Shown one piece after another: positions 2,850 to 34,634 of a DNA stretch of 52,299 bases. The position numbers were made by a program, and so were the translations under genes. The notes under the pieces are model-generated. The model did not search any database. It was not told where the DNA came from and worked only from the letters and a program-made list of their open reading frames with translations. Positions within the stretch are counted from its first letter, which is position 1. The number at the start of each line of letters is the position of its first letter. Origin of the DNA: a virus. The stretch covers positions 1 to 52,299 of IMG/VR virus record IMGVR_UViG_3300030450_003597; one strand, written 5' to 3'.

Positions 2850-3053
2850 ATGTCTATAAAAATCAATCTATTAAATAATGGTGAGTTCACATCACGAGAT
2901 GTATCTGCAAGTAATGTTGGAGATTTAAGGAATGAATTAGAAATTCCTACATCAGCACAAGTTAATGTTGGTGGAACTATCAGACAAAATGATTTTTCAT
3001 TGTCTGAAAATGATTATGTAGCATATACATCTAACAATAAAGTAGGAGGTTAA
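2850..3053 (+). CDS. Ubiquitin-like beta-grasp protein ending in Gly-Gly
   Basis: This 67-residue protein shows a beta-grasp order. Strand 1 (IKINLL, 3-8), strand 2 (about 12-19), a helix (NVGDLRNELEI, about 22-32), strand 3 (AQVNVGG) and a final strand (ENDYVAYTSNNKVGG) lead to a C-terminal Gly66-Gly67. ThiS, MoaD and the prokaryotic ubiquitin-like proteins of PRTRC-type cassettes share this pattern and are activated by adenylation of the terminal glycine. Because GG is already the end, no protease maturation is needed. The GG codons form part of the ribosome site (AGGAGG) of the next gene, two bases downstream. The identity as a Ubl is inferred from fold pattern, GG terminus and JAB/E1 neighbours. 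Confidence 0.8.
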   Translation: MSIKINLLNNGEFTSRDVSASNVGDLRNELEIPTSAQVNVGGTIRQNDFSLSENDYVAYTSNNKVGG

Positions 3054-3055
3054 TT

Positions 3056-4612
3056 ATGAGCGATAGTATAACTTTCGATAATGGATTAACAGTTTTAAAT
3101 GTTAATAATTTAGATGTATTATCTGAACCATCTCAAGAGTTGGCTAATGCTATCGCTACAGGACCTCAAGATGAATTCTTTCAATTGTTAGAAAGTACTA
3201 ATGGGCTTATTAGGAGATTATCAGCAGGTAGAAATTATTATAATCAACCTGTTGATAATTCTCTTGATGTTTCCATTACACCATCTTGGAATTGGCGACC
3301 AGGAACTTACGATAAAATAAGAGAGCTAACGATAAAAATGCTACAATTAGAAAAGCGTAGTAATGGAGTATATAATTTCATTAAAAGAACAAAAGATAAT
3401 GCAGAATGGACTATGCATACTTTATTACGCAATTTTGATGAACTTGAGAGCTTGAAATCTACATTAAAATCAGAGAATTACCCATATAATGTTGATGTTA
3501 ATGAATATACAGATAAATTAAAATCATTTAGTACATCTGTTATAGAGCAATGTGAGAAAGTTGAAGAAACATTCCAAAACATATCTATAAAACCTTATAT
3601 TCATATAAATCAGGATAATACAAGAAATTCTATGTTTTATTTAGATGTTACATTAAATGAGCTAAAAATGAATGTATTTCATCAAAGAAATAAAATACAA
3701 GAAATTGCTTTAGAGCCTATTAGAATAGTTATTTATAACAAATTAAGGCATACTATGGCCAATTACTTGAAAAATTCTAGAATAAATAATTATTCATTTA
3801 GAGGAGTATATCAAGCAGAAGAATATCAGTATTTTAGCACAGACGATGGTGGAAGAAGTTTTAATTTTCCATATATTGCAAAAGCTAGATATAGGTATGA
3901 TAACCAAAGATATGATTATCAAACAGTATGTTTAGATAAATATTTAGATGATATTAAAAATAATCTAAGTAAAGTTGAATACATGCCAATGATAATGAAT
4001 TTAATGTCTTGGGCTACATATTATAATACTGAATATTCAAATCCTTATAACCAACCTTACGAATTGCATTTTGGTATGCCTGAATATATGAGCAGAGAAT
4101 ACAAATCAACATTTGCTAATGCATCTGATAATTGTTCAAATAGATTAGCGCGTACATATGGATTACATTCACAGCCATCTTTATCATATAAATATTTAAA
4201 TAATGGTATCGATATGATTAATAATGAATGTGATAGGATAAAATGCGTTTGGAGAGAAAATTGTGGAAAATATAGGACAATAAAACGCAATTTCGAATTA
4301 GTTAATAATGAAGATTTGAGGAATCAAGCTGAATCTTTATTAGGATTTATTCAATCTTTAGATGATTGGATGACAATTTTTAGAGATTATTATGGAGCAG
4401 TAGAAGATGATGATGAAATATTATTAAATCTTTTAATAATAAATTATAATCGTGGTAATACTCTACATGGAAATCAAATATTAACTGATTTTGGTTATTT
4501 TGACAAAGAAAATGAAGATAAGCTGGAAGATAGAGATGGAGAAGGTTCAGTACCAACAAGAGAGCAAATACAACAGAGAATGTTGCAATGGGCAACAGAA
4601 AGGAGTATGTAA
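3056..4612 (+). CDS. Probable E2-like conjugating component of the Ubl system (518 aa)
   Basis: The protein sits between the Ubl and JAB genes, the place an E2 would occupy. Its N-terminal ~200 residues look helical and coiled. A later segment, with FPYI at 271-274 and TVCLD around Cys292 followed by a helix and a YNTEYSNPYNQP stretch, resembles the E2 order 'HPxI ... ICLD ... helix ... NPxxP'. Cys292 would be the thioester residue. FPYI-to-Cys spacing is longer than in classical E2s, so this is a distant match by eye. A second Cys group lies at 392, 397 and 403, plus Cys360. It overlaps the JAB gene by one base (TAATG). If not an E2, it could be the dedicated target or scaffold of the system. 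Confidence 0.5.
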   Translation: MSDSITFDNGLTVLNVNNLDVLSEPSQELANAIATGPQDEFFQLLESTNGLIRRLSAGRNYYNQPVDNSLDVSITPSWNWRPGTYDKIRELTIKMLQLEKRSNGVYNFIKRTKDNAEWTMHTLLRNFDELESLKSTLKSENYPYNVDVNEYTDKLKSFSTSVIEQCEKVEETFQNISIKPYIHINQDNTRNSMFYLDVTLNELKMNVFHQRNKIQEIALEPIRIVIYNKLRHTMANYLKNSRINNYSFRGVYQAEEYQYFSTDDGGRSFNFPYIAKARYRYDNQRYDYQTVCLDKYLDDIKNNLSKVEYMPMIMNLMSWATYYNTEYSNPYNQPYELHFGMPEYMSREYKSTFANASDNCSNRLARTYGLHSQPSLSYKYLNNGIDMINNECDRIKCVWRENCGKYRTIKRNFELVNNEDLRNQAESLLGFIQSLDDWMTIFRDYYGAVEDDDEILLNLLIINYNRGNTLHGNQILTDFGYFDKENEDKLEDRDGEGSVPTREQIQQRMLQWATERSM

Positions 4613-5532
4613 TGGAACTAAGTCAAATGTTTCATATCAGAGAGAAAAGCTGGTATGAAATAATATCTTGGGCTAAGTTAGCATATGATGAAGATAAAAA
4701 TGAAATATCAGGCTTAGCTACAGCAGTACCTGATAAAAATGGATTCTTTATTATTGGCGATGTAGAAATAATGAAACAAGAAAATAGTGGCTCTAATACA
4801 GAGTTAGATGGAGATGCAGTTACAGCATATAAAATGAAATATGGGATGAAACATAAAAATCCTAATATGAAATTTGTATGGTGGCATTCACATCATACTA
4901 TGGATGCGTTTTGGTCAGGAACTGATAAGCAAGAAATAGATGCCTGGGAAAATGATTCTTTTTCATTAGCTCTTGTTATTAATCTTAAAGAAGAATATAA
5001 ATTCAGAGTAAGTATTTGGAAAGCTGCTGGATTAAATATAGCTCAACATTATGATATTCCATTAAATATATTAAGAAAAAATGGAGTAAATGTAACAGAT
5101 AAAATGAAAGAACAATATGAAGAACTTTGTTCTGATAAACATACATATGTTAACAATCATAATAACTGGAATAATAATTATCAAACAACAATATGGAATA
5201 ATGGCTTTAAAGCTAATATGCCTAATTGGAATGATATGAGCAAATATTCCAAGACACTTGAGTTAATAGAGAGCGCTATGGATGAGTTTATGAGCGATTC
5301 ATTGTCATTTAAAGATTTTAATGACCAAATGAAATTCTTAAATAGTGAAATTAAAAATCATAAAATTAAGGATTACAAGATAAAGATTCCAAAAGGCTCT
5401 AAACAAGCACTAATAAATAAGTTAAGTAGTATCTTTCCTGAAGAGTTATTAGAATTTAAGGATAATGATACAAAAGAGGCTTATCAAAATCAAACTGATG
5501 TTTGGGGAGGTAATTATGGCTACTTACATTAA
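4612..5532 (+). CDS. JAB/JAMM metalloprotease (deconjugating isopeptidase)
   Basis: The JAMM zinc motif is complete: Glu31, then His92-Ser-His94, seven residues, Ser102, two residues and Asp105 (HSHHTMDAFWSGTD). These families hydrolyse the bond after the terminal glycine of ubiquitin-like proteins, so it probably removes the phage Ubl from targets. I start at the ATG at 4612, which overlaps the previous stop and is preceded by AAAGGAG. An ATG at 4588 in the same frame has no ribosome site. The JAB core covers about residues 1-140. The remaining ~165 residues are Asn/Lys-rich and helical, with no known domain. It overlaps the E1-like gene by 17 bases. Confidence 0.88.
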   Translation: MELSQMFHIREKSWYEIISWAKLAYDEDKNEISGLATAVPDKNGFFIIGDVEIMKQENSGSNTELDGDAVTAYKMKYGMKHKNPNMKFVWWHSHHTMDAFWSGTDKQEIDAWENDSFSLALVINLKEEYKFRVSIWKAAGLNIAQHYDIPLNILRKNGVNVTDKMKEQYEELCSDKHTYVNNHNNWNNNYQTTIWNNGFKANMPNWNDMSKYSKTLELIESAMDEFMSDSLSFKDFNDQMKFLNSEIKNHKIKDYKIKIPKGSKQALINKLSSIFPEELLEFKDNDTKEAYQNQTDVWGGNYGYLH

Positions 5533-6199
5533 TACACGCTCTAGTGGATTAATAGATAGTCTTAATAAGCATTCTTTTCATATACTGGGCTGTGGAGCTA
5601 TAGGTAGCTCTGCAGCTACCCAGTTATGTAGAATGGGAGCAGAAAACTTCTCTTTATATGATATGGATAAAGTAGAAACACCAAATATAGGTGTATCTCA
5701 ATATAATCAATGTCATATTGGAATGAATAAGACATCTGCTTTAAAGCAACTATTAATTGATATTAATCATGAAATAGATGTAACTGAACATTTTGGTTTA
5801 TTTAGCAATTATTATTGGAATAGTAATAATGATATTATCATATTAGGATTTGATAGTATGAAATCAAGACTAGAATCAATGGAAATATGTTTAGCTAAAA
5901 GACCAAATTGGCATGAAAGCAAGCCTTTAATGGTAATTGATGGGAGGATGGGAGCCGAGCATTATCAACAGTATACCTTTTTATCTCCTTCTATAGATAA
6001 ATATAAAAAAACATGGTATTCTGATGATGAAGGAAGCTCTGAACCATGCAACATGAAAGCAACAAGCTATTGCTCTAATATGAGTGGAAGTTTTATAGCA
6101 AATACCGTTCGTAAAGTGCTAACTAAGCAACCTTATGAAGCCGCTTTGTCATTTAATTTTCCTACTACAATATTAGAGAAAAAGACCTTGTATAAATAG
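5516..6199 (+). CDS. ThiF/E1-like Ubl-activating enzyme (227 aa)
   Basis: The nucleotide-binding loop GCGAIG (25-30), the Asp pair DMD (49-51) with Asn57 in place of the usual 'DxDxVexsN', Lys72 and Asp113 match the ThiF/MoeB/E1 adenylation core. RMGAE (144-148) and PCNMKATSYC with Cys178 and Cys186 lie where candidate thioester or metal Cys are found in small prokaryotic E1s. The enzyme would adenylate the GG end of the Ubl. An in-frame ATG lies 17 codons upstream (5465), but 5516 is preceded by GGGGAGG, so I use it. It is short for an E1 and consists of little more than the adenylation domain. The stop codon lies inside the 5' arm of the element at 6194-6285. Confidence 0.87.
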   Translation: MATYINTRSSGLIDSLNKHSFHILGCGAIGSSAATQLCRMGAENFSLYDMDKVETPNIGVSQYNQCHIGMNKTSALKQLLIDINHEIDVTEHFGLFSNYYWNSNNDIIILGFDSMKSRLESMEICLAKRPNWHESKPLMVIDGRMGAEHYQQYTFLSPSIDKYKKTWYSDDEGSSEPCNMKATSYCSNMSGSFIANTVRKVLTKQPYEAALSFNFPTTILEKKTLYK

Positions 6200-6285
6200 C
6201 TGGAATGTTGTAATATAATGGGCTGGATAAAATAAGCAAGTTATGGATGTAATAAACTGCAGGTCTTGCTTATTCCAGCCTATTT
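6194..6285 (+). ncRNA. Structured element 9 with alternative pairings
   Basis: A closing helix of 12 bp with one bulge joins 6194-6205 to 6273-6285. A competing helix of 16 bp with a 4-base bulge joins 6221-6240 to 6265-6280 (GGCTGGA ... ATAAGCAAG with CTTGCTTAT-TCCAGCC). The two share the 3' strand TTCCAGCC and cannot both form fully, an arrangement typical of switching leaders or attenuators. It lies between the Ubl cassette and the Sak4-like gene, so it could set their relative expression. No T-tract follows. Confidence 0.5.
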
Positions 6286-6308
6286 CACTTTAACATAGGG
6301 AGAATGAA

Positions 6309-6980
6309 ATGGCATTAAAAAAAGTCAAAAGAAAAGCTGTCTCCAATAATCCTAAAACGATGTTATTATATGGAGCTCCAAAAGTAGGAAAAACTACTGC
6401 ATTAAGCAAATTAGATGATTGTCTAATTATTGATACAGAAGGTGGAGCAAATATGATTGAAGGATATGTAGAGTCAGTAAAAGATAGAGCTGAATTAATA
6501 ACGCTCTTAAAAGAAGCACAAGACGGTCATGAATTTAAATATGTAGCTATAGATACTATAGATAGAGTAGCTACATGGGCAGATAAGGCTGTTTGTGAAG
6601 AAGAAGGTGTATCAGCAGTGCAAGACTTACCTTTTGGAAAAGGTTTTGGTCTTGTAAGAGAAAAAGTATTAAATACTATACATTTTCTTAAAGAAATATT
6701 TCCTCATGTGATAATAATCGGACATAGGAAATGGGCTAGAGCAATAGTAGATGGTAAAGCTATGGTTGAACCAGAAAGCTTAGATTTAACAGGAAAGTTA
6801 AAGAATATGCTGATGGCAGATTGTGATGCTATAGGTTACGTTTATAGAGATGAAGAGAAAAAGAAGTTAATGGTATCTTTTCAAGCAAATGAAGCCCTTG
6901 AAGCAGGAAGTAGAAGTCCTCATTTGAGAGGCAAAGAAATCGAATTAAACTGGAAGCTAATATATAAAGGAGATAAATAA
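6309..6980 (+). CDS. Sak4-like AAA ATPase, phage recombination protein
   Basis: The RecA-like core is clear: Walker A GAPKVGKTT (22-30), IDTEGG (41-46) and a Walker B YVAIDTID ending near Asp82, then 'VIIIGH' as a sensor-like strand near 155. Length (223 aa) and motif layout match the AAA_24/Sak4 group of phage proteins, which assist single-strand annealing or recombination near replication genes. GGGAG precedes the ATG. It overlaps the next gene by one base and is followed by primase-helicase, which fits a replication-recombination module. Confidence 0.8.
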   Translation: MALKKVKRKAVSNNPKTMLLYGAPKVGKTTALSKLDDCLIIDTEGGANMIEGYVESVKDRAELITLLKEAQDGHEFKYVAIDTIDRVATWADKAVCEEEGVSAVQDLPFGKGFGLVREKVLNTIHFLKEIFPHVIIIGHRKWARAIVDGKAMVEPESLDLTGKLKNMLMADCDAIGYVYRDEEKKKLMVSFQANEALEAGSRSPHLRGKEIELNWKLIYKGDK

Positions 6981-7573
6981 TGGCGATATTTAAACCAGAG
7001 GTAAAATCAAGTCCAACTAATTTCTTAGGATTATGTAAATTTGGTATACTTGAATTTAGAGATAGGTCATCTGAATTTGACTGGGCTGACATTTTCATAG
7101 AAGTCTTAGTAAAACAAGAAGGAAGTGAATATGACAGAACTATTCAAATAAAAGGCTCTTTAGATAAAGAAAATGGAAAGATTGTAGGAGGAGCTGTACT
7201 AAAAAGAATGTATCATACCTTTGAACAATTAGGTTGCGATGCAGGTATAAACATAGATGGAGGATGGGAAGATTCAGATGGAACTGAAATTAAAGATATT
7301 GCAAAATATTTAAATGATAAATTTGTAATAGCTAATGGAAAATCAGAACCAGATATGCATTATTTAGGTTATTTCTACAGAGAGAAACCTAAAGTACCAG
7401 GTGCGAAAGCTTATACAAGAGCTTTTGCTAAGTTCTATAAAAATGAAAATGATAGTGCCAATAAACTTCAAAATGATGTTGATTGGATGAAATCAAAAGG
7501 CTATCTAAAAGAAATGACAGATGAAGTTGAATCTAAAACTGAAATGTCAGGGAGTGGTTTAGATAATCTATGA
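6980..7573 (+). CDS. Probable partner of the Sak4-like ATPase, SSB-like (197 aa)
   Basis: The gene is locked between the ATPase and primase-helicase genes by 1- and 4-base overlaps. The product has a beta-rich first half with Trp/Phe/Tyr residues (DWADIFIEVLVKQE) and a low-complexity, acidic C terminus ending in GSGLDNL. An acidic tail after a beta-rich domain is the usual build of phage single-strand-binding proteins, and Sak4-type genes are often next to one. No diagnostic motif is seen, so the SSB reading is an inference from position and architecture. Confidence 0.45.
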   Translation: MAIFKPEVKSSPTNFLGLCKFGILEFRDRSSEFDWADIFIEVLVKQEGSEYDRTIQIKGSLDKENGKIVGGAVLKRMYHTFEQLGCDAGINIDGGWEDSDGTEIKDIAKYLNDKFVIANGKSEPDMHYLGYFYREKPKVPGAKAYTRAFAKFYKNENDSANKLQNDVDWMKSKGYLKEMTDEVESKTEMSGSGLDNL

Positions 7574-9327
7574 AATACCTGGAGATAGCTAGAGCTACAC
7601 CTATCAATAGGGGTATTATGATACCAAAAGGGAAACTTATTAATTATATTAGTAAGGAACCTTTATATCGCTCTGTTTACTTATATGATGAAGAAGCTTT
7701 AGATTATGTAAGAAAAAATGGAACATTGAAGAATTACTTTGGTGTTAGATATATCGATAAAATACCTATAGATATTGATAAAGGTGATAATAGTGACGAA
7801 AGAACTCTAGACATCTTAAGAAGTGTTATTTTAGAGCTAGAGGAGGCGGACATCGAATGTGGGAGCTTTCAGTCTTACTTCTCTGGCTCTGGATACCATT
7901 TATTGCTATCAGGAGATTTATTTAACTTCAAACCTAGTAATGATTTACCCTTTATTGTTAAGCAAACATTAAAGAAATTAATACCTCATTTAGATTCAAG
8001 TATTTATATGAGAACTGGTATTTATAGAGTACAACATACTACTAATCAAAAAACTGGTTTATATAAAATACCTTTATATAGAGATGAGGTGATGAATTTA
8101 GATGCTAACGATATAATTGAAATGGCTAAAAATAATAGAAGCGATTTTAAATATCATAGCCTTTCAGGTAATGGAGAGCTAGAAAATTCTATAGTAGAAG
8201 ATATTCCTGATGTAAAAGTACTTGGTAAAGTATCAGAACCAAACAAAGTTGTACCTTGTATTCAATCTATGTTAAATAAAGGAGCGAATGAAGGAAGTAG
8301 GCATATTACAGCAATGAGAATAATAAGCTATTTTAAAAGAAATGGTTTACCTAGTCATTATGCTAAAGTATGCATGCTACATTGGAATGCTAAAAGCATG
8401 AATGAACAGCAAGTTATGGAGATGGTAGAGAATGTATATAATAGAAATTATCAATATGGATGTAAAGATTCAATTATGTCAGAACATTGTAAAACTCAAT
8501 GTATACATTTTAAAAGAAAAGACTATTTAGTAGATATAAAATCTTCAGATGAAATGCAAAGTGAATTACATGAAAGATTAACTACCGATTTTAGTGGAAA
8601 AACTATAGACCTAGGTAGGGCATTAGGAATAGAAAAAGAATCGGTTATATATCCAGGTGAGTTAGTAACTATATTTGGGCCAACAGGCTCTAATAAGACT
8701 ACTTTTGCTCAAAACTTAGCATTAGGAGTAGACTTTGTTAATGATAAAATTAATAAAAATTGGCAAATTCCTACATTATTTCTAAGCTTAGAGTTATCAT
8801 CATGGTATATGCATAGAAGGCATTTACAAATAGTATCAGGAAGAACTAAAGATGAAGTGAATAATAATTATTCAGGTCTTTATAATAGTAATAAAGATAA
8901 ACTAGAGCATGTCGTTGTTCAAACAATATCTCCTACTTTAGATAAAATATCTGAAAAAGTAAGAGAATTACAACCAGCTTTGGTAATTGTAGATTATATT
9001 GATTTAGTAGAAACTCCAATGTCGTATAGAGGAGAATACGAGAAAATCAAATATATATCTCATGGATTATCAAATATGGCAGTTAATAACGATATGATAG
9101 TAATACAAATATCGCAAGTAAGCAGAGAATATAGTCGAAATGAAGTGCTCGACCTATATGCAGGAAAAGGGTCTGGAGCAATAGAAAATGCGTCTAGAAA
9201 AGTAATTGGATTAAATGGTCAATCTGATTCCAAAACTAGAGCTGTTAAACTATTTAAAAACACAGATGGAGAGTTATTTGACACAGAAGTTGAATGGACT
9301 CCATCATTCAGATTAAGGAGGTTGTAA
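7570..9327 (+). CDS. Primase-helicase fusion (585 aa)
   Basis: The N-terminal domain has primase-polymerase (AEP/PrimPol) features: IDID (67-70) as metal-binding acids, SGSGYH (105-110), and a basic stretch near 148-165. A Cys group (C298, C307, C311) marks a possible metal-binding linker. The C-terminal half is a DnaB-type RecA helicase with Walker A GPTGSNKT (370-377), LSLELS, Walker B VIVDYID (around Asp475) and IQISQVSR. The order primase-linker-helicase parallels T7 gp4 in design although the primase type differs. It would unwind and prime phage DNA for a host polymerase, as no phage polymerase is seen here. Confidence 0.83.
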   Translation: MKYLEIARATPINRGIMIPKGKLINYISKEPLYRSVYLYDEEALDYVRKNGTLKNYFGVRYIDKIPIDIDKGDNSDERTLDILRSVILELEEADIECGSFQSYFSGSGYHLLLSGDLFNFKPSNDLPFIVKQTLKKLIPHLDSSIYMRTGIYRVQHTTNQKTGLYKIPLYRDEVMNLDANDIIEMAKNNRSDFKYHSLSGNGELENSIVEDIPDVKVLGKVSEPNKVVPCIQSMLNKGANEGSRHITAMRIISYFKRNGLPSHYAKVCMLHWNAKSMNEQQVMEMVENVYNRNYQYGCKDSIMSEHCKTQCIHFKRKDYLVDIKSSDEMQSELHERLTTDFSGKTIDLGRALGIEKESVIYPGELVTIFGPTGSNKTTFAQNLALGVDFVNDKINKNWQIPTLFLSLELSSWYMHRRHLQIVSGRTKDEVNNNYSGLYNSNKDKLEHVVVQTISPTLDKISEKVRELQPALVIVDYIDLVETPMSYRGEYEKIKYISHGLSNMAVNNDMIVIQISQVSREYSRNEVLDLYAGKGSGAIENASRKVIGLNGQSDSKTRAVKLFKNTDGELFDTEVEWTPSFRLRRL

Positions 9328-12502: not shown

Positions 12503-12687
12503 TTAAATGCTCAAAATGTAAAGAGTTAATAGGGCCATCAGCGCCTTGTTATAAAGCATCAAGGGGTTTTATGGATAGTGATGGAGTGTTCTATGAAGAT
12601 GAAACTATAGTTTTACACATGGAATGCTATTATCATTATACATTTGACCCTTTTGATGAAATAGAAAAAAATATAAAGAATAGTTAA
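12499..12687 (+). CDS. Small zinc-ribbon protein (62 aa)
   Basis: CSKC (4-7) and a later Cys/His group (Cys17, then HMECYYHY at 40-47) indicate a small zinc-binding fold, in which a His may replace one Cys. It starts in an ATGA overlap with the previous stop. It is the last gene of the plus arm: its stop at 12685-12687 overlaps the stop of the convergent giant gene, leaving no space for a terminator. Confidence 0.6.
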   Translation: MIKCSKCKELIGPSAPCYKASRGFMDSDGVFYEDETIVLHMECYYHYTFDPFDEIEKNIKNS

Positions 12688-15600
12688 TATAAAGACATGC
12701 CAGGAGTAGGAGGAGTATAATCAGATTCTCTTATTCTTTTTGCTTCTCTAGCCATTCCAGTTAATGGAAATCCAACTACTTTCTCAGGGAGCCTTAATGG
12801 GTTATTTAATAATCCAGTTTCAGGATGAGCAACATCCCTTATCATTCTACCAAATGGGAACATAGTCCACATATAATAATCAGATAATTTAGTATAATCA
12901 TCTTCAGCAAATTCTCTTATTACAGAGATAGGAAATCTTGCTATAGGAGGAGTAATCATTTGAAGAGGGGCTACAGCTCTAGGATAAGTACCAAAGAAAG
13001 CTCTATCTCTTTCTTTTTCATCACCAAATAGCCATTCTGATGTATCCTGTAACCAATTCCAAGGGGCAGGGAGTACTTGTTCAAATAATGAGTACATGAA
13101 AACTGAAGATAAAGCAAGAACAAATAAATCAGTAGTCATAGTTCTTTCAAATCTTTTCATAGCTTCAGTTCCTGGAGTATATCCATATAAACGAGCTTGT
13201 TTTCTTATATCATTTCTAAATCTAACAGCATTCCAAGACCATAATTGGAATCTTGACATAATTTTACCTAAACCAGAACGAGCAAATGCTGGTCTAAATG
13301 GAGCATTATATAAGAATTGTGTAGCTTTGACACCTTTTTTAGCTATTTCTATAAGATAAGGATGATTTGGGTCTTGTATAGAACCTCCAAATCTTTCCCA
13401 TGCTTTAATATAATGAGCCATAAAAGAATCTCTTCTTAACATTCTTTCAGGTATAGTCATAAATGCAGCAGCTTTTTTCATAACAGCATCTGTAATACCA
13501 TATTTTTTAGAAAGTGCAGTAAAATCTATATCTTTTACTTTTGCATCACTTTTTGATATTTCTATAAGTTCATTTGCAAAAGCTTTACCTTTACCTTCTC
13601 TAAATTCTTTATGTAATCCAAATTCATGTTGTAAAAATTCAGGCTGTATTCCTAAATCAGCTACAAAATCATTAATAGCTTCTTTGTTTTTCCATTTAGG
13701 ATTAATAGTTTGTAAAAAAGAAATATCTCTTGCTTTTCTTAAAGGCTCATAACCTACTGATTGAAATGTATGCATAGTACCACCAAATACATTATTAATC
13801 ATAGTTTTAGGATGAGTCATTAAAGTAGCTAATTGATATTTACCTTCAGTATTAGCAAGACTTCTTATATTATATGCATCTAATCCACCTATAATAATAT
13901 CTTTATCTTGCTTTTTAGTTATATCAATTTCTTTTATTGGGTCTTTGATTAAACCTAATTTTTCACCAATTTTATTTAGTTTTTTAGCAACAAGATTGTC
14001 AGCAAACCAACTATAAGGAGTGCCTTTTAATTTTAAATTAGGATTATCTAATTCAGCTTGAGATAACATTACTGGATTACCCATAGCTTCACTAGCATAC
14101 TTTTTCCAAAAAGTAACCCAGCCTTTAACCATTTCTCTAGCTTCTTTTTTATCCTTTTGAGATGCAGGTGTAACCCATTTTTTATTCATATGTTCCCTCA
14201 TATTATGAAGAGTATATCTAGATACTAAATTCCCCATTTGTCTAAAATAAGTATTTGTTAAGTTTCTAATATAAACTTCAACAGAGGTAGGGTCAACCAT
14301 CCATCCACCCATATGATTATCTCTTGCAAACATATTACCAAATCTCATATTTACAGAAGGAAGTTTAGTAGTTTCTTGTTTGCTTAATTCTTTCTTTTCA
14401 AGTTTAGTTAAAGTTTCTTTAAATAAATCAGCATCTAATTTATTCCACATTTTATAGTCAGCAAAATCCCAATCTCCAATTCTTGTTTTATATTGAGTAA
14501 TAAGTTTTTGAATTTTAGCTTGCTTTTCTTGTTTAGTAAGCGTTTTATCGCTTAATAACATATCTTTTTCATTCTTTAAAGATTGCTTTAATTTCTTTTT
14601 ACTATGAAAATAATGAGGGAAATAACCTTTTCTATATCCTGTGCTATTTATAACTAAGTCCTCATATTCCCTAGCTTTAGCTTCCTTGTCAGGTCTCCAT
14701 TTTGCTTGTTCAAGTTTGGATAATTTCCAATAATCTTCAGTGTTAATCTTTTTAACTTCACCTTTAACAAATCTAGTATATTCAGTAGGAGGAAGTAAAT
14801 CTATAAACATAGAACGAGTCATATGTCTCATTCCATCAACACCTATACCTAAAAATTCATCAACTTTTTTATCTTTAGATGATAATAATTGCCCTTTTTT
14901 ATAAGCTATATCTAAATCATTAATAAAGGATTTATAGTCTAAAATAGGCTGAGTTTGTTTATCAGGGTCATACCAGCCTGTTCTATATTTAGATAAAGCC
15001 CCAGGTCTACCTCTTATAATACTGTGATAATTCTCCATTAAACCTTCTAATTTATTCATTGTATAATCTATTAATTCGTGACCATTATACTTTTTTCTAA
15101 CCCCATCTAACTCAACAACATAGTTTTTATTTCTAATTTTAAAATAATTGTTATTCTTTTGAGAATCTTTCCAATTTTGTTCATATATCTTTTCACCAGA
15201 ATCATGGAATTGTTTTAACTCACTTTTTCTAACAGCAAGACGCCACATAGCATCGCCATCTTTAGTTTGGTTTAAATATTTAAATGAATCTTGAAAACTT
15301 CTTATCAATTCTTCAGATTTACCATAAGATAAATCATGAGTTCTACTTATCCAATTCTGTAATACTTCTCCATAATAAGTAGGTCTATACATTTTACCTA
15401 TTTTTGCAATACCATCTTTTGTTTGAAAATATCCTTCTGAAGGAAGGAATTTCATATCATTAGATAACATCTCAGCATCTATTTGTTTAGGGAATAAAAG
15501 ATGATGCCTTCTTTTTAATCCAGCTTTTTTCAAATTATCTAAATGTTTTTCCATTTGTTGAAACATATTACCGCTTCTTACAAATTTGAAATAATTATTT

Positions 15601-18600
15601 ATCAACTTATAATCTTTAATATTCATTTGATTTAAAGTTTTAGGAGGAACATCTGAAAAAGGTTCATGCATAGTACTATAAATACCAGATAATAATTGAC
15701 TTATATCTTTTCCTTTAGCATCAGAATAGAATTTTAAATTCTCAAATAGTTCCTTAACAATCTTCTTATTTTCAGGAGTAGCTTCAACATTGCCTTTCTT
15801 AATACCTTGATATGCATCAATATCATTTGTAATATTTGCTGCTAATCTTATATCTCTTTTATTTATAAGCGGGTCAATTTCTTTTTCGAAAGATTCTATA
15901 TCTACCTCTTTATAAGGCTCCATAGATTTAAGATAATATTTATTTTTAGTTTTAAAGAAGTTCATTATATTCTTAGAACTAACAACTTTAGAATCGAATG
16001 CAGCTTTAGTAGTATTTGTTTTAGCTCCTTGTTTATATAAATCAGTTAAAGTTATCTTTTCTAATTTATCTTTATTAGGCATTTTCATATACTTATCAAT
16101 AGATTTCTGCATTTCAGGACTTCTTAAAGAGCCAATATACAGATTATCAAATACATCTCTTGCTGACTCCGAAGGTAAGGATTCCTTGTATTTTAATATT
16201 AAATTATCTAAAGTAGCATTGTCAACTAATTTTGTTCTTCTCTCTAATCCTTTAAGATTAATAGGACTTTTCAAATTTAAAGCTTCATGTAAAGATTTTA
16301 TATCTTTCAATCTATTTACTTCTTGAGTTGACTCAGATGGAACAAATTCCCCTCTATTGCTTCTCATTTTATGTTGATAAGCATTAATACTTTTAAATTC
16401 TTCTACTTTAGCTCTTATTTGAGCCATTAATTCATTAGTTAGACCTTCACCTTTTTCATAACTTTTTTCATAAATATCAACTATTCTATCAAGAGTAGTC
16501 ATATTATGAAAAGCATTAGATAGATAATCTTGAGAATCACTTAATAATTTCCTAAGATAGCCTTCTACTTCTACTTCATTTAGAGGGTCTTTGATATTAT
16601 GTCTTATCTTACTAATACCCAATTCTTTAATTAAAGATTTACCATCCTTAGACCAAGATTTAATATTTTCTTCAATAAATAAATCATTTTTAAGTATGAA
16701 GTCAACTTGTTTACTAGGTTCTTCTACTAATTTTGTTCTACCTAATAATTGTTTATAGAAATCTAATTTCTTAGCATATACTTCATGTTTGTTATATAGT
16801 TTTTTATAAGCATTAAAATCAATTCTTTTAAATAAAGATATATCCATATCTACGTTTCTAAGAGTATTGGCAAATTTCATAGTACTAGTTGTCATTTCAT
16901 TACTATCATAATTGTTTATTCTTTTGCCCATCATTTTTTTCTCAAATGGAGTATAACCTCTATTTAAATCCCAATTTCTACTAAAATAAGCAGCATTAAA
17001 ATTCCTAATATCATTATATCTTTGATGATTTTGAGTTTTTCCTTCAATTCCATAAGTTGGAATCTTTGATAAATTAATCCATTTTTTAGTTTTTTCATTA
17101 TATTTTTGAGGAGTAATTTTAAAATAAGCTTCTCTTAATAATGATTGCATCTTAGGAAATTCTATTAATCCAGTTTCATTTGCTGGGTCAGCTGTGAAAT
17201 TAACTAAAGCTTTACTTAAATCTCTTTGTTCAGCACTAGCTTCTTTAGGTTCTAATATAGTCCTATATTTTACCCCATCTTTAAAGATTCCTTTTTCAAA
17301 TACATCAAACTTATTATTACTATGCTTTAAAGAGCTCCATGCAGCTCTCATATGAGATGTCATCCCGACTACTGGTCCCATTTTACCTCTACTCCTGGCA
17401 TGTTCTTGTCCAACAAACATTCGTACAGCAGGAGAGAATCTAGCTAATGGGTTTTTATTTACTTGGTCTAAGAAATCAGGATTTAAACCCCTATCTTTTA
17501 CATCTTTTCTTGATATAACAATTTTATCTCTATATTGAGTTTTAGCATCTTTTATATTAGTCTTATCTTTGGTATAAAATTCTTCTTTTTGTGCTTTATA
17601 CATATCTTTCCAGCTTTTTTTCATACCTTCGCCAGTACCATCAGCATGCCTTCCTCCAAAATATATAAAAGATTCATCTCCATCAAGGTCAGCTCCACCT
17701 TGAGCCTCCATAGACCTTCCGTGAGATAATACTCCATGGTCTTTAATACCAGTAAATCCAGCAAATCTTTTAACTTGAGCTCCTGAAGGTGAATCCTGAG
17801 GTACTCTTACATTGATTGCTTCAAATATATCATCAAACTCTTGTTTGTATTTCTTAAATTCAGGCATATTTTTAACAGACCACAATTTGCCTAATGTAGT
17901 TTTTTCTAATCTAGGAATATTAGTATACATAGGAGTATCTTTATATAAGTCTCCAAGATAGAATATATCATCTTTTTTGTTTAACTCAGGAAACTTTTCC
18001 TGTAAAGATTTATCATAAGGTCTCATCCTGGCTACAATAGCATTTTTCATCTTAGGTCTTAAAACTCTTTCAGCTACAAATCTATCAATAGAAGTATGCA
18101 CATAATCTTTAGTATATTTATCAAAAAACATTGGATAAGCATCTTCCATTTTAGATAAATGCTTAATAATATTATCAGCTGTAGAGTAAAAATCAACTAA
18201 ATTCCTACTTTGTTCTTCAGCTTGAGTTCCAGAGTTTTCGCCTTCATTTCTAGACATTTCTAGAGATTCTTTATTTGTTTTAAGTATCTTTAAAAGCATT
18301 TCTTGAGCTAATTTTTCCGAACCAGGACTTTTCAATACTTTCTCTACAGATTTAATACCAACATCATCAAAGTTTTCTATAATGTCTTTTAATATTTTAT
18401 CAGAAGGTTTTTCTAAATAAGAATCAACTAACTTATTATATTCAGTCTTCCCATCAAACGACCTTTGTGCTATTTCATTATAAAGATTATCGATAGTCTC
18501 TTGGCTAACCTTAGAGTACATATCAGGATGAAGGTTAGTAAGCATTTGTTTTACAAATGTAATGCCTATAGGTTTACCAGCTTCATTTTTACCAAGCATT

Positions 18601-21600
18601 TTATGGTCATTGATAACAGAATGAGAATATCTTAAATCTCCTGGGTTTATTTCAATAATTTCTTTAGCTCCTCCAATAAGCTCTAAAGGTTTACCTTTAA
18701 TATAATTATAATCACCTGGAATCCTGTCTCCTGTTTGTTTAATAGCACTTTCCATCATAAGAAAATTAACGCCTTCTCCATTATTAGCTTTTTCCATAGC
18801 TTTAGTTAAGTCAGGACCAGCTTTATGAATCATATATTTACCAAGTATAGTTCCTTTAGGATTCTTTGATATAATAAAAGACTTATTAGAACCTGTATAT
18901 GGAACTCCTGCATCAAGATTAATAGCATCTACAACTGCATCTGTTGCTATAATAGCTCCATCAACATGCTGAGGTAGTTTTACATTTAAAGCTTTTAATA
19001 TATTATCTATCTTTACGGGGTCAGCAATAAGAGAACCTTTATAGTTACCATCTCTTTTACCTAAAGCTATTTCATTAGCATGATTCTCTCTAGATGCTAG
19101 ATTTTTTATAGCTTCATTTTCAGGTAAAAAATGAGCTTTTTCATGTCTAATTACAAAATCTTCCCAAGATTTATAACTTTTGAAAATATTTTCAGGAAGA
19201 GGATTTACTCCTTTTACTTTAGGTTTTATCCACACTTTATTATCATAATCTTCTCTAAGTTTATCTTTATCAATTTTAATTGCTCTATTTTTCTTATCTG
19301 TTTGCGCAGAAACAAATCTGTCTGAAACAGTTGATTTTATATTCTTAGAATAAACTATCTTTAAATCAGGTAATTTAATTTTAGATAATTTTAAATCTGC
19401 ACCTGTATATTTAGGATTATTAATAAATTCTTTATCTCCTTTAATACCATTAGTCATCCATATTTGAGCTCTTTTATTATCTGCAACAGCATTTTGTATA
19501 AATCCAGGATTATTTATCATTTTATTTATAGGCATACCATTTAATTGCTCTTGATATGCTATAATAGATTTCATCATATTATCATGCTCTAATCGATTCA
19601 TACCATATAAATCTTTAGCAGTCTTATAAATAGAAGGAGGTAAATTTACTTTCTTTGTTTTCTTATAATTTGGATGATACTTAACAAATATTATTCTATC
19701 TTTATCGCCTACTCCACCATATGGATGATAACCTTTTTTACCCATCTTTTTTATAGTATTTGATATAAAGTCCTTTTTAATTGCTTTTTGCTCTAATGAA
19801 GTACCCTCTCTTCTTGTAGCATATTCAAATTTAGATAAGTCATAATCCACGCCTTTATAAGTAAGCGCATCTAATATAGCATATTCAAATTCTTTTGGAG
19901 GCTCTATTACTAATTTTGATTTACCTCCCATTGTATATGGATTTTCTTTATCTGTTAGCTCAACCTTTTTACCATCTGTATTTATAAAACGAACAGCCTC
20001 TCCTTGATTTTGTACAGCAATCCACTGTCTCATTTTACCTTTTAAGTCAGTTGGTAGTTGCATATTAAACTCTTGTTCTATAGCTTCTACCCATTCTGGA
20101 GACCTATTTTTAGTTGAACCTCTTTCTATGTATTCAGGGGCTAATTTACCAGCAGATTTTGATATTTTAACTATCATATCATCTCTTTCAACAGAGCTTT
20201 TAATAGTCTTTTTTAATTCAGGTCTTAAGTAGGTTTGCATAAAATAAGACATTTTATTATCAATAGGGCTAGTATAGAATTCACCTGCATCTCTAACATC
20301 ATTTGTCTCAATATCAAGAATATCCTGTTTTTTATCTATTTCTGCATCAATTTCAGCTTTAAAGCCCATTTTATCCCATTTTTGGAACAAAGACTCTATA
20401 GCCTGCTTCTCACCTATGTCAATAGCTTTCTTTCCAAAAAAGGCTACTCTAGGGCTTAATTCAGGAGTTTTAGCTGTTGTAATGAATTTTTTACTACCTT
20501 TATCATACTTAAGCCATTGCTTAGTTTTATCATAAACATACACCTCTTTACCTGCATCAATACCCATTTGAATTGCATATTTAGATAATCCTTTAGTAGC
20601 AGTCATTTTATCATTTACTTTGTCTACTGATATAATTTGGTCTGAGAATTTAACATTAACGAAATCTCTTCTCATTCCTTCTTTAGCATATTCAGATAAT
20701 CTTCCTATCCTAACCTTTTCTCCAGCTTTATTTAAATTTTCTATAGCAGTATCAATACCTTTATTAGCTTCAACTAGATACTTTCTTTCTATAGTAATTG
20801 ATTCATTAGGCTTACCATAAGTCTTTACTTGGTCAGGGAATTTTGTCTCTACAGAAGATATATCTCTTTTTCTAGCACTCTCTAATACTTGTGCTTGAGT
20901 TCCAGTTTCTCCAGTAGTCATAACATAGTATCTAGTAGGGTCTGGTTTAGAAGCTTCTTTGATAGATTCTCTAATTATTTGTTTTTGTTGTTTTTGAACT
21001 TCTTTTTCTATTTTATCAGCAACTTTAAATACTTCAGAGCGAACATCTTTTCCAGATTTTTGAAGCTCTTCCATCTTAGGAGCCATGCCTTCTACTTCAG
21101 CTCTCCTATAGAGTTCATAGGTAGCTGCTTCTATTTCCTCTGGAGTACCTCCAGCCATACCTGGTCCAGAAGTAATTTTTAAAACCTCTTTTTGAACTTC
21201 AGGTTCTACTTTTTCCCAACCTTCATATAGTTCTCTTGGGTCATAAGTTTTTCTATGAATAGGATTATCACTTTTTTCAGCTTTCTCTCTAACCTTTTGA
21301 GCAATAGGCATAGCCTTAGCTACAGTCCAAGGTTTTTCAGAACCACCAAAGTATGCACCCATAAGATATTCATATACTTGTTCAGGAGTTGAAGCTCCTC
21401 TTGCAGTTGCAGGTAATCCCATAAATAAAGAACCTGCTAAACCTCTTGCAAACTTCTCTGCCTTAGGGTCTTGCATGTTTATTTGATTTCCAATACCTCT
21501 AAATACACCACCAGCTATAGCTCCATGAAAGAAACTATCAAGCATAACATCTACACCACCTTGCCAAGCAGATATAGCACTTGCAGTACCTAGGTTGAAA

Positions 21601-22148
21601 GCACCTTCAGCTATATGTTTTGCTTTTCCTGTAGATAGGAATTTAGCTGCATCTTGAAATGCTTGACTCTTAGCCCCTATTCCAGCTTTTAATCCAGCAT
21701 TAGCTACTTTAGCGGCTCTAGGAGTAATATATTTCTCAGCTACATATAAAGGAATACCTTTTTTACCTTGAAGGAATTTAGCGCTATCTAATAAGGTTCT
21801 ACTTTTAGTAGTCATACCAAGGAATTTAAGAGGACCAGCTAATATACCAGGAGCAAATCCAGCTAAGTGACCTACACTTTTAGCTACTGCTTCCCAAGCA
21901 TTATCTGGAGTATCTTTAGATACATTTAAAGTAGTAAAGCCTTCTAGGAATCCTGCTCCAGCATATTTAATAGCATCAATAATAGAAAAATCCCCTTCAT
22001 AAAAGGGGACATTATGATATTGAGCATGTTGCCTTACAGATTCTAATCCTTGAGGACTAAAATTAGAAGGATTCTTTTCATATGATTTTATGAAATCTCT
22101 AGTCTGAGATTTGGTATAGGAAGGACTCCATTGAGAAGTTTCTGCCAT
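12684..22148 (-). CDS. Giant virion polyprotein with two-barrel RNA polymerase core (3154 aa)
   Basis: Residues 1448-1491 carry RVP ... GGADLDGD, matching the catalytic barrel of cellular beta-prime and YonO/crAss-type single-chain RNA polymerases ('RxP ... DxDGD'); Asp1487, Asp1489 and Asp1491 would bind the catalytic metal. Upstream, DGAI at 1063, K1104, K1109 and SAIKQTG (Lys1137) fit the Lys-bearing second barrel. After the catalytic loop, GKMGPVVGM (about 1588-1596) resembles the Gly-rich segment following it in crAss-like enzymes. An HEKAH zinc motif lies at 1002-1006. The N terminus (about 50-230) and C terminus (about 2850-3154) have hydrophobic segments suited to membrane passage. 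The neighbouring upstream genes encode internal virion proteins, so it is probably packaged and injected. TAGGAG precedes the start. Confidence 0.78.
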   Translation of the reverse strand: MAETSQWSPSYTKSQTRDFIKSYEKNPSNFSPQGLESVRQHAQYHNVPFYEGDFSIIDAIKYAGAGFLEGFTTLNVSKDTPDNAWEAVAKSVGHLAGFAPGILAGPLKFLGMTTKSRTLLDSAKFLQGKKGIPLYVAEKYITPRAAKVANAGLKAGIGAKSQAFQDAAKFLSTGKAKHIAEGAFNLGTASAISAWQGGVDVMLDSFFHGAIAGGVFRGIGNQINMQDPKAEKFARGLAGSLFMGLPATARGASTPEQVYEYLMGAYFGGSEKPWTVAKAMPIAQKVREKAEKSDNPIHRKTYDPRELYEGWEKVEPEVQKEVLKITSGPGMAGGTPEEIEAATYELYRRAEVEGMAPKMEELQKSGKDVRSEVFKVADKIEKEVQKQQKQIIRESIKEASKPDPTRYYVMTTGETGTQAQVLESARKRDISSVETKFPDQVKTYGKPNESITIERKYLVEANKGIDTAIENLNKAGEKVRIGRLSEYAKEGMRRDFVNVKFSDQIISVDKVNDKMTATKGLSKYAIQMGIDAGKEVYVYDKTKQWLKYDKGSKKFITTAKTPELSPRVAFFGKKAIDIGEKQAIESLFQKWDKMGFKAEIDAEIDKKQDILDIETNDVRDAGEFYTSPIDNKMSYFMQTYLRPELKKTIKSSVERDDMIVKISKSAGKLAPEYIERGSTKNRSPEWVEAIEQEFNMQLPTDLKGKMRQWIAVQNQGEAVRFINTDGKKVELTDKENPYTMGGKSKLVIEPPKEFEYAILDALTYKGVDYDLSKFEYATRREGTSLEQKAIKKDFISNTIKKMGKKGYHPYGGVGDKDRIIFVKYHPNYKKTKKVNLPPSIYKTAKDLYGMNRLEHDNMMKSIIAYQEQLNGMPINKMINNPGFIQNAVADNKRAQIWMTNGIKGDKEFINNPKYTGADLKLSKIKLPDLKIVYSKNIKSTVSDRFVSAQTDKKNRAIKIDKDKLREDYDNKVWIKPKVKGVNPLPENIFKSYKSWEDFVIRHEKAHFLPENEAIKNLASRENHANEIALGKRDGNYKGSLIADPVKIDNILKALNVKLPQHVDGAIIATDAVVDAINLDAGVPYTGSNKSFIISKNPKGTILGKYMIHKAGPDLTKAMEKANNGEGVNFLMMESAIKQTGDRIPGDYNYIKGKPLELIGGAKEIIEINPGDLRYSHSVINDHKMLGKNEAGKPIGITFVKQMLTNLHPDMYSKVSQETIDNLYNEIAQRSFDGKTEYNKLVDSYLEKPSDKILKDIIENFDDVGIKSVEKVLKSPGSEKLAQEMLLKILKTNKESLEMSRNEGENSGTQAEEQSRNLVDFYSTADNIIKHLSKMEDAYPMFFDKYTKDYVHTSIDRFVAERVLRPKMKNAIVARMRPYDKSLQEKFPELNKKDDIFYLGDLYKDTPMYTNIPRLEKTTLGKLWSVKNMPEFKKYKQEFDDIFEAINVRVPQDSPSGAQVKRFAGFTGIKDHGVLSHGRSMEAQGGADLDGDESFIYFGGRHADGTGEGMKKSWKDMYKAQKEEFYTKDKTNIKDAKTQYRDKIVISRKDVKDRGLNPDFLDQVNKNPLARFSPAVRMFVGQEHARSRGKMGPVVGMTSHMRAAWSSLKHSNNKFDVFEKGIFKDGVKYRTILEPKEASAEQRDLSKALVNFTADPANETGLIEFPKMQSLLREAYFKITPQKYNEKTKKWINLSKIPTYGIEGKTQNHQRYNDIRNFNAAYFSRNWDLNRGYTPFEKKMMGKRINNYDSNEMTTSTMKFANTLRNVDMDISLFKRIDFNAYKKLYNKHEVYAKKLDFYKQLLGRTKLVEEPSKQVDFILKNDLFIEENIKSWSKDGKSLIKELGISKIRHNIKDPLNEVEVEGYLRKLLSDSQDYLSNAFHNMTTLDRIVDIYEKSYEKGEGLTNELMAQIRAKVEEFKSINAYQHKMRSNRGEFVPSESTQEVNRLKDIKSLHEALNLKSPINLKGLERRTKLVDNATLDNLILKYKESLPSESARDVFDNLYIGSLRSPEMQKSIDKYMKMPNKDKLEKITLTDLYKQGAKTNTTKAAFDSKVVSSKNIMNFFKTKNKYYLKSMEPYKEVDIESFEKEIDPLINKRDIRLAANITNDIDAYQGIKKGNVEATPENKKIVKELFENLKFYSDAKGKDISQLLSGIYSTMHEPFSDVPPKTLNQMNIKDYKLINNYFKFVRSGNMFQQMEKHLDNLKKAGLKRRHHLLFPKQIDAEMLSNDMKFLPSEGYFQTKDGIAKIGKMYRPTYYGEVLQNWISRTHDLSYGKSEELIRSFQDSFKYLNQTKDGDAMWRLAVRKSELKQFHDSGEKIYEQNWKDSQKNNNYFKIRNKNYVVELDGVRKKYNGHELIDYTMNKLEGLMENYHSIIRGRPGALSKYRTGWYDPDKQTQPILDYKSFINDLDIAYKKGQLLSSKDKKVDEFLGIGVDGMRHMTRSMFIDLLPPTEYTRFVKGEVKKINTEDYWKLSKLEQAKWRPDKEAKAREYEDLVINSTGYRKGYFPHYFHSKKKLKQSLKNEKDMLLSDKTLTKQEKQAKIQKLITQYKTRIGDWDFADYKMWNKLDADLFKETLTKLEKKELSKQETTKLPSVNMRFGNMFARDNHMGGWMVDPTSVEVYIRNLTNTYFRQMGNLVSRYTLHNMREHMNKKWVTPASQKDKKEAREMVKGWVTFWKKYASEAMGNPVMLSQAELDNPNLKLKGTPYSWFADNLVAKKLNKIGEKLGLIKDPIKEIDITKKQDKDIIIGGLDAYNIRSLANTEGKYQLATLMTHPKTMINNVFGGTMHTFQSVGYEPLRKARDISFLQTINPKWKNKEAINDFVADLGIQPEFLQHEFGLHKEFREGKGKAFANELIEISKSDAKVKDIDFTALSKKYGITDAVMKKAAAFMTIPERMLRRDSFMAHYIKAWERFGGSIQDPNHPYLIEIAKKGVKATQFLYNAPFRPAFARSGLGKIMSRFQLWSWNAVRFRNDIRKQARLYGYTPGTEAMKRFERTMTTDLFVLALSSVFMYSLFEQVLPAPWNWLQDTSEWLFGDEKERDRAFFGTYPRAVAPLQMITPPIARFPISVIREFAEDDYTKLSDYYMWTMFPFGRMIRDVAHPETGLLNNPLRLPEKVVGFPLTGMAREAKRIRESDYTPPTPGMSLY

Positions 22149-23856: not shown

Positions 23857-24483
23857 TTATAGATTAACTCCTATTTTCCATGCAAATACTCTTAAATGCC
23901 CAGAAGTTTCTTTTGTCATTGCAGTTCCAGTAGCAGAATGAGTATTGTCATGTATTAATATATGCGGGTCAGCAAATCCTATACTCATATAGCTGTTTTG
24001 CATAAATACTGACATTCCAGTATCGGTATTTGTAGGAGTATTATATAATTCAGCTATTCCTATGTGATTAAGTGAAAATATATCACCTGTATTGCCCGCT
24101 GCATCTCCAGTACTTATTTTTACTCCCGTTCCATTTGCTTTGAAATAGAAATGGGTTAATAGAAGCTTACTATTTAAACCATGGTGAAATTTATACCTAT
24201 TATTAGCTGAAACTGCTGTCCATCCACTATCATAATGAGGTGAAATAACAGGATTTTCCCATCCTTTGTTTGTTCTAACTCTCATTTTATAAGAATTATC
24301 TACTTGTCTTTCTACACTTAAGTCACCACTTTTTCCTTTTGTTTCTGGAATCTCTAATTCAGCAGGATTATTAACAGCATCTTTTAATAGATTTAATTTA
24401 TTTTCAATATCTTGTAGGCTTTTTTGAACTCCATTAAAGTCTTTAATTTTAGTTAATATTTTAATCTTATCAATTGAAAACAT
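23857..24483 (-). CDS. Small tail-fibre-like protein (208 aa)
   Basis: The first 40 residues form a coiled helix (KSLQDIENKLNLLKDA). The rest is beta-rich with 'SGWTAVSANNRYKFHHGL', a phrase style common in phage tail-fibre or receptor-binding domains. It overlaps the stop of the giant tail gene by 3 bases, suggesting coupled synthesis and a common structure. Length suggests a short trimeric fibre or spike. The family is not identified. Confidence 0.5.
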   Translation of the reverse strand: MFSIDKIKILTKIKDFNGVQKSLQDIENKLNLLKDAVNNPAELEIPETKGKSGDLSVERQVDNSYKMRVRTNKGWENPVISPHYDSGWTAVSANNRYKFHHGLNSKLLLTHFYFKANGTGVKISTGDAAGNTGDIFSLNHIGIAELYNTPTNTDTGMSVFMQNSYMSIGFADPHILIHDNTHSATGTAMTKETSGHLRVFAWKIGVNL

Positions 24484-33785: not shown

Positions 33786-33851
33786 TTTTCTCCTTGCATA
33801 TCCATTTAATGTTATTATATGAAGATGTCCAGTATTTGTCAGGAACAATCA

Positions 33852-34634
33852 TTATTTGTTCCCATCTAGCATCTCTCCCCATACTGCAGTCCTCCCATCT
33901 ATTATCTGAACTATATCTACTGTAAATCTACCACCTCTATAGTAATCAACTATTGCAAAAGCATGAGCCCACTTATGTTGTCTTCCTCCTAACCATTCAT
34001 TCTTTTCAGAGGACATATCTTTTAGGCATCCTAATGACCAAGCTGATTTAGGTCCATCCATATGCGTTACACTATCTTGTTGCAGGGAATGATGATGACC
34101 ATACATTATATTGGCACCTAGCTGTCTTAGATGATTCTTTGCGTGGAATTGTCCACCAAAATGGTGCCCATGGTAAAAATAGAGCTTTCCTATTTTAAGA
34201 TATTTACCAGGTTTGTGGTATTTATATCCTCGCTCTTTAAAGTTACATACATCTTTAAAGCGATAGTTGAGATAAGGATGCTCTTCTACGAATCTATCTA
34301 ACCATTCATCATGATTCCCTGCACATATATGTTTTTCTTTACAACCAACTTTGTCCAGAGACTCGTCTATTATATCAAGTAACTCGTTTACTGCTTTTAT
34401 ATCTTCGTCGACCCTTGGCATTATATATTCCAAAGGTGGTTTCTTCTTTCTTTTCCACTGCCAATGAGAAACGCTTGAGAACTCTCCGAGGTCACCTAAA
34501 TCTACATATATATCAGGTTTAACCAGTTCTATTGCTTGACATACAACCTTGATAGCAGCTTTATCATATATAGGTGCATGTTTATCTGGAGTAACTATAG
34601 CACGCTTTAGTACTCCTCCACTTTTCTTTTTCAT
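33852..34634 (-). CDS. Calcineurin-like metallophosphoesterase (260 aa)
   Basis: All five metallophosphoesterase blocks are visible: DKH (17-19), GDLGE (47-51), GNHDE (106-110), a His in FYHGHH (about 152-157) and GHHH (about 177-180). These residues hold two metals in the family and hydrolyse phosphodiesters or phosphomonoesters. Phage members include nucleases and cyclic-nucleotide hydrolases; the substrate here cannot be told. Its position inside the tail/lysis region, away from replication genes, is unusual and might point to a late role, for example countering host nucleotide signals. Confidence 0.85.
   Translation of the reverse strand: MKKKSGGVLKRAIVTPDKHAPIYDKAAIKVVCQAIELVKPDIYVDLGDLGEFSSVSHWQWKRKKKPPLEYIMPRVDEDIKAVNELLDIIDESLDKVGCKEKHICAGNHDEWLDRFVEEHPYLNYRFKDVCNFKERGYKYHKPGKYLKIGKLYFYHGHHFGGQFHAKNHLRQLGANIMYGHHHSLQQDSVTHMDGPKSAWSLGCLKDMSSEKNEWLGGRQHKWAHAFAIVDYYRGGRFTVDIVQIIDGRTAVWGEMLDGNK

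Follow-up and report, generated by a model that had tools for sequence, protein, structure and literature searches.

Most of what is known of ubiquitin-like (Ubl) conjugation in bacteria concerns defence operons, systems on plasmids and the pathways of cofactor synthesis. The IMG/VR virus record IMGVR_UViG_3300030450_003597, analysed here over its entire 52,299 bases (the window), carries a cassette of four coupled genes, encoding a Ubl of 67 amino acids (aa), a 518-aa E2-like protein, a JAB/JAMM metalloprotease and an E1-like adenylating enzyme, which probably make up a complete, reversible Ubl conjugation system borne by a phage. Several described systems resemble it. PRTRC (type 6d of Iyer et al. 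2006, PMC1779556) likewise has separate genes for a Ubl with a C-terminal Gly, an E2-like protein, a JAB and an E1-like enzyme, but it is a plasmid or chromosomal operon with other neighbours, whereas the cassette lies in a phage replication locus. BilABCD, a bacterial ISG15-like defence operon, also consists of four genes, for Ubl, E2, JAB and E1 (PMC11354881); its BilA has two Ubl domains, and its BilD two adenylation domains and a Cys domain (PMC11354881), while the cassette, found on phages, has one 67-aa Ubl and one single-domain 227-aa E1 and lacks the BilB CEHH pattern after Cys292 of its E2-like protein. In CBASS, Cap2 combines E1 and E2 in one protein and the tag is the cGAS-like enzyme (PMC10097602). 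CBASS Cap2/Cap3 and Bub share E1 chemistry and a JAB isopeptidase with the cassette, whose E1 matches Cap2 and Bub structures, though only the E1 part of the PADLOC E1-E2 models. The lambda tail genes I and K are, like part of the cassette, a phage-borne pair of Ubl and JAB (PMC1779556), but they belong to a tail-assembly locus, have no E1 or E2, and their JAB is fused to NlpC.

A preliminary description of this DNA had named PRTRC, CBASS and Bil as related systems; they are indeed analogues, and the cassette would work like them, but they are not its parent families. PRTRC membership was rejected on the scores of the JAB with PRTRC_A (16 bits against a cut-off of 101.8) and of the E1 with PRTRC_ThiF (19.8 against 144.75), and neither the Ubl nor the 518-aa protein matched any PRTRC model. 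Bil was rejected because both the Ubl and the E1 are single-domain proteins, and CBASS type II because E1 and E2 are separate, the Ubl is a dedicated one and the cassette has no CD-NTase, none being found among its genes in library scans of their proteins. Filing under 6A-MBL was rejected along with these three, the models being either far under cut-off or wrong in architecture. No description of a phage Ubl-E2-JAB-E1 cassette was found in the open-access literature, a coverage outside which subscription papers and preprints mostly fall.

The four genes (Table 1) are separated by a 2-base gap, a 1-base overlap (TAATG) and a 17-base overlap, and plausible ribosome-binding sites lie upstream of the JAB start at 4612 (AAAGGAG) and of the E1-like start at 5516 (GGGGAGGT). 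This tight coupling had been pointed out in the preliminary description, as had the natural Gly-Gly end of the first gene (K-V-G-G-stop), the full set of JAMM ligands in the third and the ThiF/E1 core of the fourth; all of these are present, and its numbering of G67, C292, C178, E31, H92, H94, S102 and D105 is correct. Relatives were collected by scans of viral contigs, in which the E1 query returned 6 encoding stretches, the 518-aa alignment 24 and the E1 alignment 354. Of the 105 loci in the profile survey (some of which overlap on one contig), 61 have the order Ubl-E2-JAB-E1, and the conserved gene order extends to relatives of only ~20% identity; where at least 500 bases of upstream sequence are available, a Ubl precedes the 518-aa gene in 55 of 56 loci. 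The ratio of nonsynonymous to synonymous substitution rates (dN/dS; Nei-Gojobori, three pairs) is below 1 in all four genes, at 0.45-0.66 for the 518-aa gene, the fastest, 0.06-0.26 for the E1, 0.08-0.23 for the Ubl and 0.15-0.33 for the JAB. With this recurring order, the co-occurrence of the Ubl and dN/dS below 1, the cassette is far beyond chance. No cellular relatives were found in two scans of 84,980 genomes, each made with narrow peptide patterns, and tblastn of the 518-aa protein and the JAB against 50,697 named phage records gave no match.

Only the E1-like enzyme is recognised outright, by Pfam ThiF (PF00899, 3e-20, above cut-off). Its family profile finds MccB as the best PDB match (3e-11), and also UBA5, PaaA, MoeB, ThiF, UBA1/UBA6, Bub and Cap2. 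R8, G25-x-G-x-x-G30, D51, K72, D113 and C178 are identical in all 73 distinct E1 sequences; from what is known of the MoeB/UBA family, we take these to be the arginine finger, the ATP contacts and the catalytic Cys. The last lies in the context E-P-C-x-x-K-A-T-S. The Ubl as a single sequence has no library match, so that its identity rests on relatives and structure prediction, and a profile search of PDB for sequence homologues of it or of the 518-aa protein gave nothing meaningful. The AlphaFold (AF2) model of the 67-aa protein, a check proposed beforehand in the preliminary description, shows a beta-grasp fold with a confidence score (pLDDT) of 88, arranged beta-beta-alpha-beta-beta (strands 3-9, 12-18, 37-40 and 55-60, helix 23-29) and ending in a loose C-terminal tail. 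Foldseek places Mth1743 (4e-4) and the Caldiarchaeum ubiquitin bound to its Rpn11 homologue (6e-4) at the top of the PDB matches, followed by SUMO, a plant Ubl, NEDD8, ThiS, ubiquitin, TtuB, SAMP1 and a bacterial Ubl-deubiquitinase complex; a predicted beta-grasp fold near ubiquitin, SUMO and ThiS is thus supported by the model.

K64, G66 and G67 are invariant in all 46 distinct Ubls and L26 in 45 of them, and K-x-G-G is always present. The Gly-Gly is the exact C-terminus in 31 of the 46, including the window copy, and the other 15 carry a tail of 1-11 residues that varies in sequence (KNK, K, KEVK, DKE, DAR, Q, QA, IK, RIISVWSV and others); for locus L017 an error in the sequence could account for the tail, as its close relative L015 ends at GG. 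A fixed di-glycine followed by a variable tail is the pattern expected if a protease exposes the GG, and with 15 tailed Ubls, processing of the tag to its mature form is probably a further task of the JAB family. The earlier argument that the Ubl needs no trimming, and that the JAB therefore acts as a deconjugase, fits the window copy but does not extend to these relatives. In the JAB itself, E31, H92, H94, S102 and D105 are invariant in all 67 distinct relatives, and the family profile has RPN11 entries as its best PDB matches (2e-4), with the E, HxH, S and D aligned; some 160 aa extend beyond the JAMM domain at the C-terminus. With the JAMM residues intact in every relative examined, reversibility appears likely. 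Family conservation, profile matches and the predicted fold of the Ubl support the assignment of the putative Ubl, JAMM and E1 proteins.

The E2-like assignment is less firm. No library match of the 518-aa protein alone names an E2, and its identity comes from relatives and structure prediction. P272, C292, W319 and P330 are unchanged in all 63 distinct sequences of the family, usually in the context [H/F]-P-[Y/F]-[I/V]-x(n)-[VI]-C-[LM], followed by the W and [SN/TG]-P-[YL]-N. This resembles the HPN[IV]...G-x-[IV]-C-[LI] and PNPxxP motifs of E2 enzymes. In the predicted structure (pLDDT 79) helix is followed by a beta-meander at 176-229 and then by C292 and further helices, the protein being mostly helical outside the meander. 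The E2-like label of the preliminary description draws on the active-site motif, which never varies, and on a weak structural match to UEV domains; sequence searches gave no significant match. C397 is kept in 62 of 63 sequences, and the four-Cys cluster to which it belongs (C360, C392, C397 and C403, residues 360-403) is intact in 51; that 9 relatives retain C397 without the other three suggests a separate role for it. In the viral library six proteins match, with values from 1e-30 to 1e-15, as does an unnamed one of 420 aa at 1e-3. The protein that Fpv phages encode in the corresponding place is also 420 aa long, which is only a lead.

From the named families, the following course may be proposed. 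Using ATP, the E1-like enzyme would adenylate the Ubl at its C-terminal Gly67 and would then hold it in thioester linkage on Cys178; the tag would move to Cys292 of the E2-like protein and from there be attached to a lysine of the target, and the JAMM protease would take it off again and, in the tailed relatives, would also expose the Gly-Gly. Several results weigh against such a complete system. Pfam E2 families matched none of 18 E2-like proteins, and the His of the HPN-type motif, present in 40 of 63 family sequences, is replaced by Phe in the window copy. When the family was compared by hhalign with four human E2-fold sequences, C292 was paired with the E2 catalytic Cys, but at P 0.035 and a probability of 1.5%. 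The PDB fold list of the 518-aa model is led by the UEV of TSG101/Vps23, at E 0.25-0.29 and a probability of ~0.7. UEV domains of TSG101/Vps23 are E2-fold proteins. The single JAB sequence reaches only 0.0013 with Prok-JAB, below the Pfam cut-off, no E3 was identified, and locus L008, the sole exception among the 56, has E2-JAB-E1 genes with no detectable Ubl near them. In the same locus a 258-base gap (positions 2506-2763 of L008) separates the E2-like and JAB genes.

The E1 also matches 76 named phage records, mainly Bacteroides crAss and Flavobacterium phages. The crAss and Fpv loci have, in order, a primase, a protein with a Ubl-like N-terminal domain and an extension, a Y-[MI]-HSH...C-x-G protein, a JAB and an E1, with a uracil-DNA glycosylase downstream in the crAss loci. 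With the window-family E1 profile, E. coli MoeB reaches 34 bits and the crAss and Fpv E1s 75-115. The Cys corresponding to C178 lies mostly in [IL]-C-S-Y-K-Q-T in crAss and in A-P-C-T-M-K-Q-T in Fpv E1s; C186, unlike C178, is not generally conserved among them. The crAss and Fpv JABs score 18-38 bits with the window-family JAB profile. The Ubls are linked by a weak profile comparison (probability 9-13%), and homology between the window E2 family and the crAss candidate was not demonstrable by profile-profile comparison. Judged on these sequences, shared ancestry with the Steigviridae crAss and Fpv phages appears well supported for the E1 and supported for the JAB; it is plausible only for the remaining cassette proteins. 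The Steigviridae crAss phages of the human gut (gp76-gp79 of the cultured crAss001) and the Flavobacterium Fpv phages resemble the cassette in gene order and in their homologous E1 and JAB, but differ in their Ubl-like domain, which has K...S-G at its end and is joined to a C-terminal extension. Two variants of this fused protein were seen. In the crAss phage cr126_1 (L111, 1323-2249) the Ubl-like open reading frame apparently includes the C-terminal domain of ribosomal protein L7/L12 (PF00542, 5e-12; the match was seen in one alignment member and assigned to L111 by sequence), and in phage cr106_1 (L110, 725-1928) an HNH endonuclease gene, sitting at the predicted domain end, splits the Ubl-like domain, whose reading frame ends KKIKSGKF, from the C-terminal part.

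Table 1. Cassette genes and conserved downstream features in the window
Feature	Position	Strand	Remarks
Ubl, 67 aa	2850-3053	+	Standalone modifier, predicted beta-grasp (relatives and AF2); C-terminal Lys-Val-Gly-Gly, then stop
E2-like protein, 518 aa	3056-4612	+	Putative catalytic Cys292; helical extensions at both termini; a second Cys, at 397, nearly invariant
E2 signature stretch, residues ~271-339	3866-4072	+	FPYI...TVCLD...W...SNPYNQP
JAB/JAMM metalloprotease, 306 aa	4612-5532	+	JAMM ligands E31, H92, H94, S102, D105
E1-like adenylating enzyme, 227 aa	5516-6199	+	Single ThiF domain, putative catalytic Cys178
Conserved RNA hairpin	6200-6308	+	Stem GGGCTGGA...TCCAGCC; between cassette and replication genes; z -4.95
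Sak4-like ssDNA-annealing ATPase	6309-6980	+	Conserved neighbour
197-aa protein	6980-7573	+	Conserved neighbour; no family match
Primase/DnaB-like helicase	7570-9327	+	Conserved neighbour

The cassette is a conserved part of the replication gene block in uncultured, ~50 kb tailed (podovirus-like) phages. The window phage has a P22-like portal, an SU10-like capsid protein and a terminase, and a P22-like portal together with one ThiF gene occurs in all 12 phage records of 46-56 kb. In loci with enough sequence, a Sak4-like gene follows the cassette in 72 of 92 and a primase-helicase in 47 of 50; L008, which lacks Sak4, has an ERF annealing protein in its place (PF04404, 4e-22). The placement of the cassette at the head of the replication operon, as first described, is right in substance, with Sak4, the 197-aa gene and the primase-helicase following it, but several small open reading frames precede it. 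Since it is present in 12 of 12 genome-length records and keeps its position and neighbours across divergent relatives, the cassette acts as a core and not as an accessory element. The spacer between E1 and Sak4 is structured (z < -2) in 42 of 50 relatives, and that between Ubl and E2 in 25 of 34; these long, conserved hairpins have no Rfam match. The hairpin in the window's E1-Sak4 spacer is a probable terminator or processing site, and it is possible that the spacer hairpins, as terminators or RNase processing sites, would set an excess of Ubl. The sequence preceding the hairpin near 6200 was considered as a repeated phage promoter and rejected, there being one exact site in the window. Two genes on the minus (late) strand, at 12684-22148 and 24483-33848, each encode more than 3,100 aa, and the product of the first has no Pfam match; a metallo-phosphoesterase-like gene (PHROG 221, 33855-34634), also on the minus strand, lies among the late genes.

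What the system would act on is a weaker inference than its existence -- indeed the weakest made here, drawn from the gene neighbourhood only. Replication and recombination proteins of the phage or the host may tentatively be put forward as targets, with host defence factors as the main alternative. Such factors are central to another explanation, in which the cassette serves counter-defence, tagging host immune or nucleoid proteins or acting as a decoy for Ubl-based host defences, Bil or CBASS Cap2 for example, and the link to replication reflects early expression only. The 518-aa gene evolves fastest, as expected if it tracks changing targets, and bacterial Ubl systems do take part in phage conflict (PMC10097602); but the fast evolution is equally explained by loosely constrained helical extensions, and the constant presence of the cassette in the genome-length records, with position and neighbours kept, speaks for a core gene set, so that counter-defence seems rather unlikely. 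A sulfur carrier is harder to accept. Ubl and E1 would then resemble ThiS-ThiF, MoaD-MoeB or Urm1-Uba4, with the sulfur carried in thiocarboxylate form and delivered to a nucleotide, a tRNA or a base of DNA, and the small single-domain E1, the ThiS structures among the fold matches and Pfam ThiS matches in 5 of 16 Ubl relatives (best 0.002) would all fit; an E2-like partner and a JAMM protease are, however, regularly present, and no rhodanese or class-V aminotransferase (cysteine desulfurase family) was detected in the 12 lineage records, though both were in control genomes and the host could supply the sulfur. We consider this explanation improbable.

The remaining alternatives turn on single members of the cassette. 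If the 518-aa protein were a substrate or structural partner and not an E2, the E1 would attach the Ubl directly and the JAB would remove it, in a closed two-state switch. This would agree with the failure of known E2 models to match, the mostly helical structure outside one beta-meander and the low significance of the UEV match, but the four residues invariant in 63 sequences stand in E2-like order and context and the beta-meander precedes the Cys, and a mere switch is quite unlikely. That MccB heads the PDB matches of the E1 profile could instead mean that the E1 puts a small molecule on the Ubl C-terminus, as MccB does on the microcin C7 peptide. That match is limited to the shared adenylation core, and microcin synthesis involves no folded Ubl, no JAMM protease and no E2-like partner; there is very little to recommend this explanation.

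Complete, reversible conjugation by the four proteins is thus the reading we prefer. A broader proposal, to which we would give only a small chance, is that there is a virus-specific family of complete Ubl systems, core and replication-linked in podovirus-like, Steigviridae crAss and Fpv phages, which would reversibly tag replication and recombination proteins (compare the SUMOylation of PCNA), with C397 as a built-in E3-like relay of the large E2-like protein. If conjugation is confirmed, phages would run their own reversible protein tagging, the purpose of which is directly testable in infected cells, and the finding would bear on the origin of eukaryotic-type ubiquitin cascades.

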